Translations under genes and position numbers: made by a program
NCBI GenBank assembly: GCA_017849615.1
Contig: JAFIGS010000020.1
Location: 1-44,161, forward strand
Source of the DNA: Pseudolabrys sp.
Lineage (GTDB): Bacteria > Pseudomonadota > Alphaproteobacteria > Rhizobiales > Xanthobacteraceae
DNA length: 44,161 nucleotides
Direction: 5' to 3'
Shown here: positions 7,542-29,115 of the stretch, one piece after another
How the letters are laid out: the number at the start of each line of letters is the position of its first letter
Numbering within the stretch: the stretch's first letter is position 1
The notes under the pieces: generated by a model
Seen by the model: only the letters and a program-made list of their open reading frames with translations
Told to the model about the DNA's origin: nothing
Database searches by the model: none

Positions 7542-8015
7542 TCATTTACGGACCGGTCCATCGTCGTCGCCGCGCAGTTCGTCGAGCGCGGCGCGGAAAT
7601 CCTTGGCTTCGCGGAAATTGCGATAGACCGAGGCGAAACGCACATAGGCGACGTCGTCGATCTCGCGCAAATGCGCCATCACCGCCTCGCCGATCGTCTC
7701 CGAGGTGACCTCGTTCTCGCCCATGCTTTCCAGTTCGCGCACGATCTTGGAGACCGTCTGCTCGATGCGCTCGGGCTCGACCGACCGCTTGCGCAAAGCG
7801 ACCTGCACCGAGCGCATCAGCTTGTCGCGGTCGAACGGCACGCGGCGGCCGTTGCGCTTGATCACCGTGAGCTCGCGCAGCTGCACGCGCTCGAAGGTGG
7901 TGAAGCGGAAATTGCAGGACAGGCACACGCGGCGGCGGCGGATCACGGCCGAGTCTTCGGTCGGGCGTGAATCCTTCACCTGCGTATCGAGGCTACCGCA
8001 GCTTGGGCAACGCAT
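7542..8015 (-). CDS. nrdR: Transcriptional repressor NrdR
   Basis: A 157-residue nucleotide-sensing repressor of ribonucleotide reductase operons. The N-terminal zinc ribbon is '[13 protein letters not shown]' with the second pair '[12 protein letters not shown]' near residues 32-43. The ATP-cone follows from about residue 48 ('[16 protein letters not shown]') to about 138. Length and domain order match the family. It sits between glyA and ribD as in many alphaproteobacteria. Both flanking junctions carry palindromic repeats. NrdR boxes, which would be near nrd genes, are not expected here and none was seen. Confidence 0.96.
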
Positions 8016-8026
8016 GTTTCTCTCCC

Positions 8027-8129
8027 GTCATTCCGGGGCGACGCGAAGCGTCGAACCCGGAATTCAGCCGCACAGTAAGAGTTCGCCTCTGGATTCCGGG
8101 TTCGCGCCTACGGCGCGCCCCGGAATGAC
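8027..8129. repeat. GTCATTCCGGG nested palindromic repeat (glyA-nrdR junction)
   Basis: Starts GTCATTCCGGGGCGACGCGAAGCG and ends CGCCCCGGAATGAC, with an inner CCCGGAATTC/GGATTCCGGG pair. It begins 12 bases upstream of the nrdR start, so in the operon mRNA the hairpin lies directly 5' of the nrdR ribosome-binding region. Confidence 0.88.
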
Positions 8130-8158
8130 AAAGGAACGAACAGCCACCCACGTTCTCA

Positions 8159-9442
8159 TCACTGATAAATCGGAAACTTATCCAGCAGCACTTTCACCTT
8201 GCCGCGGACCTTTTCCTCGACCAGCGAGTCTTCGGTCACGCCCTTCTGCGCCAGCACGTCCAGCACCTCGACGATCATTTCGCCAACCTGCTTGAACTCG
8301 GCGGTGCCGAAGCCGCGCGTGGTGCCGGCCGGCGTGCCGAGACGGATGCCCGAGGTCACCATCGGCTTCTCGGGATCGAAAGGGATGCCGTTCTTGTTGC
8401 AGGTGATGTGGCCGCGGCCGAGCGCGGTCTCCGCGACCTTGCCGGTCTGGCGCTTGGGGCGCAGATCGACCAGCATCAGATGGTTATCGGTGCCGCCCGA
8501 CACAATATCGAGGCCGCCGGCCTTGAGCGTGTCGGCGAGCGCCCGCGAATTGGCGACGATGTTCTTGGCGTAGGTCTTGAACTCGGGCTGCAGCGCTTCG
8601 CCGAAGGCGACCGCCTTCGCGGCGATGACATGCATCAGCGGGCCGCCCTGCAGGCCGGGGAACACCGCCGAATTCATCTTCTTGGCGATGGCCTCGTCGT
8701 TGCACAGGATCATGCCGCCGCGCGGGCCGCGCAGCGACTTGTGCGTGGTCGTGGTGACGACATGGGCGTGCGGGATCGGCGACGGATGCTCGCCGCCGGC
8801 CACGAGACCGGCGAAGTGCGCCATATCCACCATGAGATAGGCGCCGACTTCATCGGCGATCTCGCGGAAACGCTTGAAGTCCCAGACGCGGCTATAGGCG
8901 GTGGCGCCGGCGAGAATGAGCTTCGGCTTGGTCTCGCGCGCGATCTTCGCCACCTCATCCATGTCGATGAGCTGGTCCTCGCGGCGCACGCCATAGGGCA
9001 CCGGCTTGAACCACTTGCCCGACATGTTGACGGGCGAGCCGTGGGTGAGATGGCCGCCGGCATTGAGGTCGAGGCCCATGAAGGTGTCGCCCGGCTGCAG
9101 CAGCGCGAGAAACACGGCCTGGTTCATCTGCGAGCCGGAGTTCGGCTGGACGTTGGCGAAATTGCAGCCGAACAGGTTCTTGGCGCGGTCGATCGCGAGT
9201 TGCTCGGCGATATCGACGAACTGACAACCGCCGTAGTAGCGGCGACCCGGGTAACCCTCGGCATATTTGTTGGTTAGCACCGAACCCTGCGCTTCCAGCA
9301 CGGCGCGGGAGACGATGTTCTCGGAAGCGATCAGTTCGATCTCGTCGCGCTGACGACCGAGCTCCTTGCCGATCACGTCGAAAATTTCGGGATCAACATC
9401 CTTGAGGGGGGCAGAAAAGAACGTCTGCGTCGTTGCCGACAT
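8159..9442 (-). CDS. glyA: Serine hydroxymethyltransferase
   Basis: A 427-residue PLP enzyme interconverting serine and glycine with tetrahydrofolate, the main source of one-carbon units. The PLP lysine is in '[14 protein letters not shown]' (about Lys235). Other blocks are '[10 protein letters not shown]' near 36-45, '[15 protein letters not shown]' near 58-72, and '[12 protein letters not shown]' near 206-217. The start at 9442 gives the typical alphaproteobacterial N-terminus MSATTQTFF; the frame is open for 46 more codons but that extension is unlike the family. It is the first gene of the glyA-nrdR-rib operon. No glycine riboswitch was seen in 9443-9594. Confidence 0.96.
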
Positions 9443-24187: not shown

Positions 24188-24433
24188 ATGCGCGCCTTGA
24201 TCCTTTCGTCCCTGTTCGCCGTGGGCCTCGGGCTCGCCGGTGCCACGTCAGCCAGCGCCGCGCCGATCGCCGACATCAACGCCGCCGTGGCCGGCCAGAC
24301 CGCGGTCGATCATGTCCAGTATTACTACCGCCACCGCCCGCGCCATCGCGTACGCTGCAACAACGTCCGCGTCTGCCGCATGACGCCGTGGGGCCGCCGC
24401 TGCCACTGGGAACGCATCTGCCGCCGCTGGTAA
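24188..24433 (+). CDS. Small secreted Cys/Arg-rich protein, paralogue 1
   Basis: An 81-residue precursor with a clear signal peptide (MRALILSSLFAVGLGLAGATSASA, cleavage near residue 24). The mature part is short and basic, with 'VQYYYRHRPRHRVRCNNVRVC' followed by 'RMTPWGRRCHWERICRRW'. Four Cys in C-x5-C-x8-C-x5-C spacing suggest two disulfides. GGAGGAAAT lies 5-8 bases before the ATG. The C-terminal half is shared with the gene at 24623, so the two arose by duplication. A strong terminator follows at once. Function unknown. Confidence 0.75.
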   Translation: MRALILSSLFAVGLGLAGATSASAAPIADINAAVAGQTAVDHVQYYYRHRPRHRVRCNNVRVCRMTPWGRRCHWERICRRW

Positions 24434-24486: not shown

Positions 24487-24622
24487 CATTAATTTTATCT
24501 CGCGGAGAGCATCCGCCGCCGGCCGGGCCTATAATTTGAAACTACGATTCCAAATTCGATCGGCGCAGGCTTCAAGCTGTGCCGGTCGAATGCTTCACCA
24601 AGCCCCAACCGGAGAAAACCCA

Positions 24623-24853
24623 ATGCGTAAGCTTGCGCTGTCGGCTCTCGTCACCCTCGGTCTCGGTCTTGTCGTGTCATCGGCCGCCGTGGCCGCGCCG
24701 CTATCGGCCGGCGCTGCCGGTCTGAGCACCGCGACGATCTCGGCCTCGCTGATCGAACAGACCGCCGTGCGCTGCCGCAACGTCCGCGTCTGCCGCATGA
24801 CGCCGTGGGGCCGCCGCTGCCGCGTCGACCGCGTCTGCCGCCGCGTCTGGTAA
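24623..24853 (+). CDS. Small secreted Cys/Arg-rich protein, paralogue 2
   Basis: A 76-residue precursor with a signal peptide (MRKLALSALVTLGLGLVVSSAAVAA). The C-terminal part 'VRCRNVRVCRMTPWGRRCRVDR' is nearly the same as in the gene at 24188, with all four Cys and the PWGRRC core kept, whereas the 30-residue linker between signal and core differs. The ATG at 24623 follows GGAGAAAA; an upstream in-frame ATG at 24536 is not needed. Each paralogue has its own leader DNA and terminator, so they are separate transcription units. Confidence 0.75.
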   Translation: MRKLALSALVTLGLGLVVSSAAVAAPLSAGAAGLSTATISASLIEQTAVRCRNVRVCRMTPWGRRCRVDRVCRRVW

Positions 24854-24917: not shown

Positions 24918-25652
24918 TCAGGCGACCTTGGGCACCGCCCGCGCCAGCGCCGCGAGAAAATGCATGCGCTCATCGGCGAGCTGCATGCCGCGCGGCTCCA
25001 GCACGTGGCGAGCCAGGAAAAAACCGGTGAGCGCGAAGCCGTCATCCAGATCGCTGCCGCGAGGATTGACGCCCGCGTCGAGGAGAAACGGCGGCAGCTT
25101 GAACATGCGGTCGGCATAAGGCGCCCCCGCCTCGCGCGACACCGCCCGGCCCGATTTCGGCGAAACGTAGATCAGGTCTTCGGTGGCGCCGGTGGCGGCG
25201 CATTCTTCGAGATCCAGGCCGAAGCCGAGTTCGGACAGAAGCTGCATCTCGAAGCGCGCGACTTCCGGCGCCGCCCAGGCCGCATTCTCGAGACCGTCCA
25301 GGATGGTTTCGAATTCGACGAACAGACCCTCATGCGGGTCGCGCTCGGGCAACAGCCGCATCAGCGCGGCAAGGTGCGACACGCCATAGATGGCATGCGG
25401 CGAACCGAAGTAGTTGGACGCGCGCTGGCGCAGCGGCTCGACGGTGTAGTTGCCCATGTGATCTTCGAGCCGGGCGCGCCACGTCGCGGACACGCTGTTG
25501 CCGGGCTGCAGCACCGGTTTCATGCGCGTGCCGAAACCGCCACGCACCATGCCGACATGGCGGCCGTGCTCGCGCGTCATCAGCTCGAGGATGGCGGACG
25601 CTTCCCCATGCCGCCGCACGCCGATCACGATGCCTTCATCGGTCCATTGCAT
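24918..25652 (-). CDS. recO: DNA repair protein RecO
   Basis: A 244-residue recombination mediator that, with RecR, loads RecA on SSB-coated gaps. The N-terminal OB-fold is seen as '[39 protein letters not shown]' in separate family blocks (quote shortened: [12 protein letters not shown]). The helical second half has '[22 protein letters not shown]', typical of RecO. The usual zinc Cys set of some RecO proteins is not complete here, as in other alphaproteobacteria. It would normally adjoin era, but a three-gene plus-strand cassette lies between. Confidence 0.93.
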
Positions 25653-25720: not shown

Positions 25721-25871
25721 GGGGAAATCACGGTGCCGCGTGACCCTTTGACGACCTGCCGCGAGAAAATCCACCGCTTGACGAGCAACGTGTATAATTG
25801 CATTATTCCCGCTTTGGTTGCAAATCGCGACCGGCGAGTTCGACTTCGGTTGCGTCAGTGGGGAGACGGCA

Positions 25872-26681
25872 ATGTCGAAAGTGCTCGGAAAGGCGACTTA
25901 CAGCGCCTATCGCCAGGACAACATCGTTCACGTGATCGCCGAGGGCGAAAAGCCCTACCTGCAGACGAAGGTGACGATCGAGCAACTGCCCTTCATGATC
26001 TACCCGCCAATCTACGCGCTGTATTTCGAAACATCAGGCATCACCATTCCCGTCATCGTTCCCTTCGTGATCGAACGGGCCATCACCAACTTTCCATCGA
26101 GCGCCAAATCGATTTCGATCGAGGACGCAACCGGCCACCATTCGATCCCGATCGACACGCGCGCAAGCGCCTCGACCGGCGCGCACGCCCTGGCCCTGAG
26201 CGAAGCGGCGGCCGCCGGCAATGTCTGCGTATTCCGGCAACTGGGCACGGAGCGACTGCTGATCGCCGCTTGCGATGCCATCCTGCCCGCCATCTATACC
26301 CGGGTTTTTGGCCCCGCCAGCTACGCCGAATGTCAGCAATATGTGGCGACCCACGCCCTGCGGCCGGTTTTCGATGTCCGGAAGGAAAGTTTCAAGGCGT
26401 GGATCGACTTCATGCCGGGCGGCCCGCCAAAGCTGATCGTCATCGGCGAAGTGACCACCGGACCCGCAATCGGCGTTCAACTGATCAAGGCCGTGCCGCA
26501 GGGCATCAACCCCAACATCCTCATCCTCGATATCGTCCTGACGCCGGGTACGGGCCGGGTCAGCACGCCGGTGCCGCAGCCCGTGCGCTACGAGGAATCC
26601 CCGCCCGCCAACACATACACCGATGTCACCATTCGCTCGGGCGCCGACAGCTTCACGATACCCGTCGGACAAACGCATTAG
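25872..26681 (+). CDS. Unknown protein A of three-gene cassette, internally duplicated
   Basis: A 269-residue protein with no family I recognise, no signal peptide and no clear membrane helix. Residues 21-57 (VIAEGEKP...IYPPIYALYF) and 190-228 (VIGEVTTGP...INPNILILDI) look like two copies of one beta-rich unit. Both are followed by a second shared strand pair, 'KSISIEDATGHHSIPI' near 79-94 and 'DVTIRSGADSFTIPV' near 251-265. The middle (about 105-185) is unrelated, with helical 'ERLLIAACDAILPAIY'. GGGGAGA precedes the ATG; the frame is open 18 codons further. It leads the cassette 25872-27454. Confidence 0.75.
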   Translation: MSKVLGKATYSAYRQDNIVHVIAEGEKPYLQTKVTIEQLPFMIYPPIYALYFETSGITIPVIVPFVIERAITNFPSSAKSISIEDATGHHSIPIDTRASASTGAHALALSEAAAAGNVCVFRQLGTERLLIAACDAILPAIYTRVFGPASYAECQQYVATHALRPVFDVRKESFKAWIDFMPGGPPKLIVIGEVTTGPAIGVQLIKAVPQGINPNILILDIVLTPGTGRVSTPVPQPVRYEESPPANTYTDVTIRSGADSFTIPVGQTH

Positions 26682-26713
26682 GTCGTCGAGGTTACAGCAA
26701 ACGGAGGTGAGCC

Positions 26714-27028
26714 ATGCCCGCAGCGAAGCCGCTTTCCCTTTCCGCAAGCCGGATGACGAGCGACGTCAGAAAGGCCGTGGACGCGGCCTTGAGCAAACAC
26801 AAGCTCCAGAACCTGCAGGTTGGCGACGGACTGGCCATTTCGTCCGGCATCGTCGGCTTTATCGTCACCGACAACGAGCTCGGCAAGAAATCGATCGCCG
26901 ACATCTCCGGTCTCGCAGCATCCGTGGCCACGTCACTCAATGGCGGCGAACCGGCCACCATCATCAAAGGCGGTCAGATCATTGTCGGCTTCATGCCGCC
27001 CACCGGCGTCGCTTCGATCAAGGATTGA
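26714..27028 (+). CDS. Unknown protein B of three-gene cassette
   Basis: A 104-residue protein starting MPAAKPLSLSASRMTS. Residues 14-30 form a charged amphipathic helix. The rest alternates Gly-rich hydrophobic strands: 'GDGLAISSGIVGFIV', then 'ISGLAASVATSLNGG' and 'ATIIKGGQIIVGFMPP'. There is no Cys and no signal peptide. A near-perfect GGAGGTGA ribosome-binding site suggests high translation, possibly more than for its neighbours. It lies 32 bases after gene A and 3 bases before gene C. A structural subunit or modified peptide precursor are both possible, without evidence for either. Confidence 0.75.
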   Translation: MPAAKPLSLSASRMTSDVRKAVDAALSKHKLQNLQVGDGLAISSGIVGFIVTDNELGKKSIADISGLAASVATSLNGGEPATIIKGGQIIVGFMPPTGVASIKD

Positions 27029-27031
27029 TCC

Positions 27032-27454
27032 GTGAACGCCGAGGAGCGGCAGGTTCGCTGCCCGAGCGCACAGCCGGGCATGGAAAAGTTGCGGGTGCTC
27101 GGCGTTGTCGCGCCGACGCCGGAGGGGCCGCGCGTCGCCTACCTCCGCCACGATGTCGAAGCCAGCGACGACGTGCTGGCCTTGGCCGCGCCCGTTCAGC
27201 CGACCGAGGTGTTTCGCCTCAGCGGAAGCTGCGCCGGCGGCACATGCGCGCATTTTCAGGGCCAGCGCTGCCGGTTGGCGGAGAGGGTCGTCAGCATGTT
27301 GTTGCCGGTGGTGTCGGCGTTGCCGCCGTGCCGGATCCGGCCGTCCTGCCGGTGGTATGTTCAGGAAGGGCGCGAGGCCTGTCTTCGCTGCCCGCAGATC
27401 GCGACGCTGGACGTCGCCGATCCGCATCGCAGCGCGCTCGCCAGGCCCGGCTGA
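27032..27454 (+). CDS. Unknown Cys-rich protein C of three-gene cassette
   Basis: A 140-residue protein from a GTG start, 3 bases after gene B and so translationally coupled. Eight Cys: one at residue 10 and seven in the C-terminal half, in the pattern C67-x4-C72-x-H74-x5-C80-x19-C100-x5-C106-x10-C117-x2-C120. Conserved-looking words are 'GTCAHFQGQRC', 'LPPCRIRPSCRWY' and 'EACLRCPQI'. There is no signal peptide, so the Cys more likely bind an iron-sulfur cluster or zinc than form disulfides. I have a faint memory of similar unnamed proteins in other phyla. Function unknown. Confidence 0.75.
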   Translation: MNAEERQVRCPSAQPGMEKLRVLGVVAPTPEGPRVAYLRHDVEASDDVLALAAPVQPTEVFRLSGSCAGGTCAHFQGQRCRLAERVVSMLLPVVSALPPCRIRPSCRWYVQEGREACLRCPQIATLDVADPHRSALARPG

Positions 27455-27475
27455 GCACCCCGCCCGGGTACGATC

Positions 27476-28405
27476 CTACTCCCGCGGGAACTCCAGCCCC
27501 ATGGCGCGGTAACGCTCCGGATCGTCACCCCAGCCCTCGCGCACCTTCACGAACAGGAACAGGTGCACCTTGGCGTCGGCAATCTCGGCGATGTCCTTGC
27601 GCGCCGCCTCGCCGATGGCGCGCAGCGTCTGGCCGCCCTTGCCGATCACAATCTTGCGCTGGCTCTCGCGCTCGACAAAAATCGTCTGCTCGATGCGCAC
27701 ATCGCCGCCGCGCAATTCCTTCCACTGCTCGGTTTCGACGGTGGAGTGATACGGCAGTTCCTGATGCAGGCGCTCGAACAGCTTCTCGCGGGTGATCTCG
27801 GCCGCGAGCTGACGCATCGGCGCGTCGGCGATCTGGTCTTCCGGATAGAGCCAGGGGCCGGCGGGCATGCGCCCGGCCAGCCATTTCTTCAGATCGACCA
27901 CGCCGTCGCTCTTGAGCGCCGAGACCATGAACGTCGTTTCGAACTTCGCCTTCTCGTTGGCCGCCTTGGCCAGCCCGAGCAGACTGTCACGCGGCACGAC
28001 GTCGATCTTGTTGAGGATCAGGATCTTCGGCCCCTTCACGTCCTGAAGCCGGTCGAGGATCGGCTCGATGTCCTCATCGAGCCCCTTGCGCGCGTCGATC
28101 AGCACGGCGGTCAGATCGGCCTCGTGGGCGCCGCTCCACGCCGTCGTCACCATGGCGCGGTCGAGGCGCCGCTTGGGCGCGAAGATGCCGGGCGTATCGA
28201 CGAAAATGATCTGCGACGGGCCCTCGACGCTGATGCCGCGGATCAGCGCGCGCGTCGTCTGCACCTTGTGCGAAACGATGGTGACCTTGGAGCCGACCAG
28301 CGCATTGAGCAGGGTCGACTTGCCGGCGTTCGGCGCGCCGATCAGCGCCACGAATCCGCAGCGCGTGCCCTCGCCCGCGGCGCCACCGGTTTCAGTTTCG
28401 TTCAT
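27476..28405 (-). CDS. era: GTPase Era
   Basis: A 309-residue GTPase that binds the 3' end of 16S rRNA in small-subunit assembly. The G domain has P-loop 'GAPNAGKS' near residues 23-30, G3 'DTPGIF' near 71 and G4 'NKID' near 132. The C-terminal KH domain contains 'IVIGKGGQTLRAIGEAARKD'. The ATG at 28405 shares a base with the rnc stop codon (TGATG), which fixes the start. It is last in the rsh-pdxJ-acpS-lepB-rnc-era string before the inserted cassette. Confidence 0.95.
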   Translation of the reverse strand: MNETETGGAAGEGTRCGFVALIGAPNAGKSTLLNALVGSKVTIVSHKVQTTRALIRGISVEGPSQIIFVDTPGIFAPKRRLDRAMVTTAWSGAHEADLTAVLIDARKGLDEDIEPILDRLQDVKGPKILILNKIDVVPRDSLLGLAKAANEKAKFETTFMVSALKSDGVVDLKKWLAGRMPAGPWLYPEDQIADAPMRQLAAEITREKLFERLHQELPYHSTVETEQWKELRGGDVRIEQTIFVERESQRKIVIGKGGQTLRAIGEAARKDIAEIADAKVHLFLFVKVREGWGDDPERYRAMGLEFPRE

Positions 28406-29115
28406 CACATCTTGTCCAGTTTGACGCCGACGCTGGTCAGCATGGCCGCCGCCGCCGCCTGTTCGGCGGCGCGCTTCGATGTACCGACGCCTTCGGCGGG
28501 CGGCTTGTCAGGCAGCACGACCGCGATCCTGAACTGCGGATCGTGATGCGGCCCGGTCCGCGCGACTTCCTTATAGGCCGGCGTCGGCAGACCGCGCGCC
28601 TGCGCCCATTCCTGCAGCATGGTCTTGGCGTCGCGGGTCGGCTTGAGCGACTGGACCATGCGGTCCTGCCAGAACTTGGCGATCAGCGCCTCGGATGCCG
28701 GATAACCGCCATCGACGAACACGGCGCCGACCAGGCCCTCGCAGGCGTCCGCGAGAATGGTGGTGCGCAGCCGTCCGCCGGCATGGGATTCCGAATTGCC
28801 GAGCCGCAGTTCGGGGCCGAGGTCCATGTCTTTCGCGACCGCGGCGCAGGTTTCCTTGCGCACCAGATCGGCCAGCCGCTTCGACAGTTCGCCTTCGTTG
28901 GCCTTGGGGAAGTTGCGATACAACATGTCGGAAATGACGAGACCGAGCACGTGGTCGCCGAGAAACTCGAGCCGCTGATAGCTCGAGACCCGGTTCTGCG
29001 GCCCGCCCGACAGCGCCGAGATATGGGTGAGCGCCCGCTCGAGCAGCGACTTGTCGGAAAAGCTGTAGCCAATCCTCGCTTCGAGCCCCGAGCGGTCTTT
29101 GACCTTGCGGCTCAT
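28405..29115 (-). CDS. rnc: Ribonuclease III
   Basis: A 236-residue double-strand-specific endoribonuclease processing rRNA precursors and structured mRNAs. The catalytic signature is 'QRLEFLGDHVLGLVISDML' near residues 46-64, with the second acidic set in 'ADACEGLVGAVFVDGGY' near 120-136. The C-terminal double-stranded RNA binding domain begins around 'MLQEWAQARGLPTPAYK' and ends 'SKRAAEQAAAAAML'. Four-base overlap ATGA with lepB upstream and a TGATG overlap with era downstream indicate tight coupling. Confidence 0.95.
   Translation of the reverse strand: MSRKVKDRSGLEARIGYSFSDKSLLERALTHISALSGGPQNRVSSYQRLEFLGDHVLGLVISDMLYRNFPKANEGELSKRLADLVRKETCAAVAKDMDLGPELRLGNSESHAGGRLRTTILADACEGLVGAVFVDGGYPASEALIAKFWQDRMVQSLKPTRDAKTMLQEWAQARGLPTPAYKEVARTGPHHDPQFRIAVVLPDKPPAEGVGTSKRAAEQAAAAAMLTSVGVKLDKM

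Follow-up and report, generated by a model that had tools for sequence, protein, structure and literature searches.

The question raised by this locus is what three genes of the plus strand are, which of them belong together and what they may do, standing as they do between two core genes of the minus strand, recO (24918–25652) and era (27476–28408), in the window, i.e. in the whole stretch of 44,161 nucleotides from Pseudolabrys sp. that was analysed. An earlier note, made from the sequence alone, had described them as an acquired unit of three cooperating proteins, and its account of the genes and of their placement is confirmed: gene A (25872–26681, plus strand, 269 codons) is followed by a spacer of 32 bp (26682–26713), gene B (26714–27028, plus strand, 104 codons) is followed by a spacer of 3 bp (27029–27031), and gene C (27032–27454, plus strand, 140 codons) is the last of the row. 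All three are real genes, because each has a homologue or a profile match. The ribosome-binding site of B, which the same note had called near-perfect, is a strong GGAGGTG (26703–26709, plus strand), and a Shine-Dalgarno-type AAGGA (27020–27024, plus strand) is found ahead of C, both as read from the sequence; the promoter-like site that is located 5′ of A (25778–25806, plus strand) is a consensus match only, at 9 of 12 bases, with 1 site found against 0.3 expected in shuffles, and B and C may be transcribed together.

The 1.74-kb segment between recO and era is an insertion. The comparison with the relative G002 (blastn, locus L084; genomes and loci are cited by our G and L numbers) places window position 27475 at locus base 1382 and window position 25736 at base 1423, with the result that the inserted segment, to which no strand is assigned, extends over 25737–27474: about 1738 bp of the window replace 40 bp of the relative. 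The era–recO interval measures 1.82 kb in the window, against about 39–604 bp in all 29 other loci of the genus (recO was detected in all 43 genomes of the genus, and 30 of these gave loci, one being the window's own), and the claim that the unit was acquired is upheld by this difference. B is present in one of the 43 genus genomes, the GC3 of A and B (0.79 and 0.78) is slightly below that of the neighbouring genes, and no clear repeats were seen at the ends of the insertion.

Three further observations concern the surroundings of recO. Two neighbouring small ORFs that adjoin this gene in the window (24188–24433 and 24536–24853) form a tandem paralogue pair, with exported-looking, basic, Cys-containing products that have almost the same tail (NVRVCRMTPWGRRC). 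The era–recO gap of G042 (L110, about 594 bp) holds a second, partial recO start of 29 residues, 79% identical to that of the window. Lastly, the genus member G020 (contig 27; L014 6597–7022, L067) has a C gene whose partner is short and B-like, located behind a topoisomerase-type gene, which we take to be parC, and near recO (contig 7712–8443), a neighbourhood as in the window.

Among the three genes, B and C form a conserved pair. B is located directly upstream of C at nine loci in two phyla: in the window, in G116, G608, G728, G206 and G870, in an Acidobacteria MAG, in an Aestuariivita MAG and on an Agrobacterium vitis plasmid (the three plasmid records of A. vitis were counted once). Measured from the first start codon of C, the two genes overlap by 4 bp at four of these loci (L025, L026, L041 and L072) and are separated by 3–20 bp at five. 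The nine B proteins were each scored with a profile HMM of the other eight, in a set that included 947 ORFs from these loci; the E-values range from 2.7e-24 to 9.5e-4, with 2.7e-12 for the B of the window. When the best 10–16 first-look candidates per genome were scored, the B profile, which has been trained on these B proteins and could miss distant ones, was matched in 4 of 391 genomes of the family (G000, G116, G608 and G728), and C adjoins B in all four.

In G728 (L117 4947–8683), the gene behind B–C encodes a protein of 966 aa, the second part of which contains LodA domains (LodA_N, 1.5e-77; LodA_C, 8.9e-38), and divergent nSTAND-like and TPR genes are located on the far side of the pair; the first 350 residues of the 966-aa protein, presumably catalase-like, have no Pfam match at 0.01. 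In A. vitis (L033 5648–6226), a 193-aa piece with 43% identity to the beginning of this protein over 134 residues (E=6.5e-29) is found in its place, and no LodA-type gene was seen directly behind C at the other B–C loci. Fusions of LodA with a catalase domain are known, as described in passages of PMC4417212.

B contains an internal repeat (P=7.5e-5; score 23.9, where the highest of 30 column shuffles scored 12.6), and its AlphaFold model, built on three sequences (pLDDT 67), shows an alpha-beta-beta unit twice, in a compact alpha-beta domain. A conserved G-[FY] strand is followed by a short variable tail, which is not rich in Cys, Ser or Thr; the motif GFxP or GYFP occurs in five of the nine proteins. 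The best Pfam match of B is PT-VENN (0.0098; 16.5 bits, cut-off 20.3), with no match to DUF1843 up to E=10; NCBIfam gives no family at E up to 10, hence no NHLP or Nif11 leader model; none of the precursor families of the two libraries is matched, and the only PADLOC match is a SIR2 model (PDLC04074, E=0.034). The profile built from four short B-like proteins extends to the C-terminal halves of GDL peptides (E=6.5e-4 to 0.23), and its best full-length B is that of G608 (0.053), the link of which to the short proteins is weak (E=0.0048–0.35, depending on the model). As judged from these profiles, a relationship between the short B-like type and the GDL tail is probable; that of the full-length B with either is proposed only tentatively.

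The C protein of the window is 52% identical to that of G116 (E=2.1e-38) and has no meaningful match in Pfam, NCBIfam or PADLOC; the same holds, as regards NCBIfam and Pfam, for the 15 aligned members of the family scanned singly (best chance matches, 0.21 and 0.011), in agreement with the earlier note, where no named family could be assigned to any of the three proteins. All 15 members share, without exception, eight cysteines (C10, C67, C72, C80, C100, C106, C117 and C120) and the residues R62, R103 and W108. The cysteines, in two sets of four, suggest two metal sites, a prediction that supports, at the level of sequence, the metal-binding candidate of the earlier note; the predicted structure of C is unusable (pLDDT 40).

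Relatives of C occur in the Acidobacteria and Aestuariivita MAGs, in eight plasmid records (three of A. vitis, two of Streptomyces, and one each of Nostoc, Spirosoma and Polymorphobacter) and in one unannotated ‘phage’ record; the C profile is matched in 15 of 391 genomes of the family, 4 of 385 of the class and 9 of 248 of another family, a few fragments among them, with the best 10–16 first-look candidates per genome scored. The analysis of neighbours is based on 35 C loci, including L078, where C is partial and a small ORF is located about 260 bp away, and leaving out L069 (E=4.7e-4, one stop) and L079 (37 residues, one stop). Weak single-sequence matches in G018, G135, G151, G082 and G167 are not among the 35; most have stops or occur in long ORFs of doubtful frame.

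A gene for a small protein is found within about 260 bp of C, mostly upstream, at 33 of the 35 loci (the exceptions being L043 and L065), according to labels that we have set from ORF lists, partly by eye. The 33 partners comprise nine B proteins, one N-terminal half of B, seven short B-like proteins, three GDL-type peptides, nine proteins with a double-glycine-like leader end (six GG, two AG and one GAG), one annotated NHLP precursor, two exported-looking Streptomyces peptides that end in Cys, and one other. C genes that adjoin precursor-like genes span Pseudomonadota, Acidobacteriota, Cyanobacteriota, Actinomycetota and Bacteroidota. Of 56 small ORFs near C, 8 have a strict double-Gly motif, compared with 11 among 599 others (P=6e-5), the eight coming from six loci with two near-copies, which inflate the count.

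The partner type follows the phylogeny of C: on the tree of the 35 C proteins, the 33 labelled rows require seven changes of partner type, where the least possible number is six and the shuffled mean is 19.3, and none of 200 shuffles is as low, near-copies inflating this clustering as well. Nine C proteins of B type, which come from an acidobacterium, from A. vitis, from genomes of Paracoccaceae type and from the family of the window, form a group with weak support (81/95), with the Nostoc protein nested inside; the C of the half-B locus falls outside this group. The C of the window has no well-supported place, and its nearest rows by path are those with double-glycine partners.

Several C genes are located in recognisable company. 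In G042 (L015 5041–7791), three genes for GDL-type peptides stand in tandem, with C and a C14 caspase gene next in the row; a C14 caspase gene directly follows C in G042 (5.9e-23), G177 (2.9e-12) and G179 (4e-19), and G179 also has, near C, a maturase that resembles TIGR03913 (533 bits, below the cut-off of 591.75). Four GDL-type proteins were scanned for DUF1843: two from G042 match (1.2e-6, over the cut-off, and 9e-4, under it), that of G095 gives 0.074, and that of G179 has no match. In Nostoc sp. C057, C follows an annotated NHLP precursor at a distance of 167 bp, among nif11 and TOMM genes; in Spirosoma, NHLP export ABC genes and a LDAVSGG peptide are found near C, and in Polymorphobacter, a radical SAM gene of cyclophane type (best match 284.5 bits, cut-off 445). 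The C genes of the Streptomyces plasmids (L035 5702–6447 and L036 5724–6453) are preceded by the peptides that end in Cys and are located near genes annotated as condensation-domain, MbtH or AMP-binding proteins.

The reading that we prefer, with a probability of roughly 0.5, is a system of RiPP (ribosomal peptide) type in which B, resembling a precursor, is the substrate and C is dedicated to it as a metal-binding partner or maturation factor. B–C would be a horizontally moving two-gene unit of this type: B, with two alpha-beta-beta units and a short variable tail, would be the small precursor-like protein, while C, with two predicted metal sites (two four-cysteine sets, for zinc or iron-sulphur), would form a complex with its own B, which it would modify, load or guard. 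Other leader types would be served in this way by relatives of C, and this would account for the GDL/DUF1843, double-glycine and NHLP peptides that are found next to C elsewhere. This reading is consistent with a short precursor-like gene being adjacent to a dedicated partner gene, and with the invariance of the candidate metal ligands of C. Several points speak against it: among A, B and C, neither a known modifying enzyme nor a leader peptidase or an exporter was recognised in Pfam, NCBIfam or PADLOC; the model of B looks like a folded domain, not a leader with a free core; the genome of the window has no GDL maturase over the cut-off; and both the place of its C on the tree and the link of B to the short B-like proteins are weakly supported.

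By gene company, not by chemistry, B–C is placed as a variant among RiPP-type neighbourhoods. The likeness to the system of GDL peptides, TIGR03913 maturase and DUF1843 consists in G042 and G179, where a relative of C is flanked by genes for GDL-type peptides on one side and a C14 caspase gene on the other, with the maturase-like protein close by in G179; the window differs, since its genome reaches at best 26.3 bits with TIGR03913 (cut-off 591.75; weak matches, none over the cut-off, were obtained in 14 of 14 control genomes too), and since B has no DUF1843 and is linked to GDL peptides only weakly and indirectly. The NHLP (proteusin) and Nif11 clusters are approached through the Nostoc locus, but B matches none of their NCBIfam leader models and A, B and C include no known maturase. 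In DUF1842/DUF1843 operons, as parts of two published accounts indicate (PMC10994174, PMC12114271), the gene of a beta-barrel domain protein, DUF1842 (PMC10994174), accompanies small GDL-type peptides, and in Chromobacterium subtsugae the DUF1842, DUF1843 and GDL maturase genes form a quorum-affected cluster (PMC12114271). A would resemble DUF1842 if it is beta-rich, as the earlier note took it to be, but DUF1842 is matched neither by A nor by any of six further proteins or half-proteins of A type (the protein of L006 and five half-proteins of L052–L055), and a G042 GDL peptide has no relative in seven of seven regions around A. As far as its sequence tells, the unit of the window fails the tested marks of the DUF1842/DUF1843–GDL maturase system.

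An explanation that we regard as rather unlikely is that C is a chaperone that handles metal or redox chemistry for folded small proteins, B being an ordinary small protein and not a precursor. The compact domain predicted for B, with its internal repeat, and the eight invariant cysteines of C, which matches no catalytic family, would suit such a role, as would the gene with LodA domains that B–C precedes in G728, which belongs to an oxidase type whose quinone cofactor is made from the protein itself (PMC4417212, in the passages concerned); it leaves unexplained, however, why other C genes have double-glycine and NHLP partners.

It is unlikely, in our judgement, that B–C is a toxin-antitoxin or other conflict pair, i.e. 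a small mobile operon in which a conserved C swaps small partners. Like two-gene toxin-antitoxin modules, B–C is small, patchy and closely spaced, down to the 4-bp overlaps, and its partners are exchangeable; it is inserted between core genes, and has a copy on the A. vitis plasmid, and caspase, CHAT-TPR and nSTAND-like genes are found near some copies. Unlike those modules, B–C matches no known family; PADLOC, with only the SIR2 match of B, gives no convincing antiphage defence system, and some partners of C are annotated RiPP precursors or have double-glycine leaders, with peptide exporters or radical SAM genes near some C genes.

The proposal of the earlier note, that A, B and C work together as a single three-protein machine, is very unlikely as regards A and is retained as regards B and C. 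It could appeal to the common strand, the close spacing, the single insertion and the one promoter-like site, located 5′ of A; the distribution of A speaks against it. A is 48% identical to its homologue in G007 (E=1.1e-62) and occurs in 4 of 43 genus genomes (G000, G007, G011 and G029, the G011 homologue with an in-frame stop); its profile is matched in 5 of 248 genomes of a family draw (G000, G001, G097, G575 and G653). A is missing from all eight other B–C loci (3.4–16.4 kb each), neither B, C nor a GDL peptide was found in seven of seven regions of 9–16 kb around A or its halves (tblastn, E≤0.1), and four genomes that hold A or a half of it (G001, G007, G011 and G029) have no C match genome-wide. 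Co-occurrence and gene order, suggested by the earlier note as a check, bear out the adjacency of B and C at nine loci, and A and B–C are found together in the window only. The halves of A are separate neighbouring ORFs in G029 (L008 11305–12101) and separate ORFs in reversed order in G575 (L052 6828–7756, the C-half match with an in-frame stop), and the C-terminal half occurs without the other in G097, G653 and G001. The duplication that had been read in A was not found when the halves were compared (hhalign, four and three sequences, P=0.47), the internal repeat being in B instead. A, which matches no family in NCBIfam or PADLOC and none in Pfam up to E=10, is best seen as a two-part fusion rather than a duplication, because its halves occur separately and are unlike each other; owing to its absence from the other B–C loci, its homologues without nearby B or C and its separate halves, it is a probable passenger gene, apparently unrelated to B–C. 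That all three genes are decaying remnants without function is most improbable, given their open frames, ribosome-binding sites, conserved motifs and retained eight cysteines, even with B in a single genus genome, the slightly low GC3 of A and B, and the stop in the A homologue of G011.

Beyond the preferred reading, in which C matures or otherwise serves B, a wider one appears doubtful to us: C would found an undescribed class of cysteine-cluster maturation proteins for unrelated leader types (B, short B-like, GDL/DUF1843, double-glycine and NHLP) in the five phyla listed above, and B–C would represent the simplest case, in which two genes suffice for a ribosomal-peptide pathway that has no radical SAM enzyme. 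Since the family has no Pfam or NCBIfam name, yet adjoins several kinds of precursor-like genes in these phyla, C would serve as a searchable marker of ribosomal-peptide loci that current libraries miss. If C is a chaperone or one half of a conflict pair, it would still represent an unnamed and widely scattered family; if it is a maturation factor, B and C would make up a two-gene pathway of about 750 bp, a very small system.
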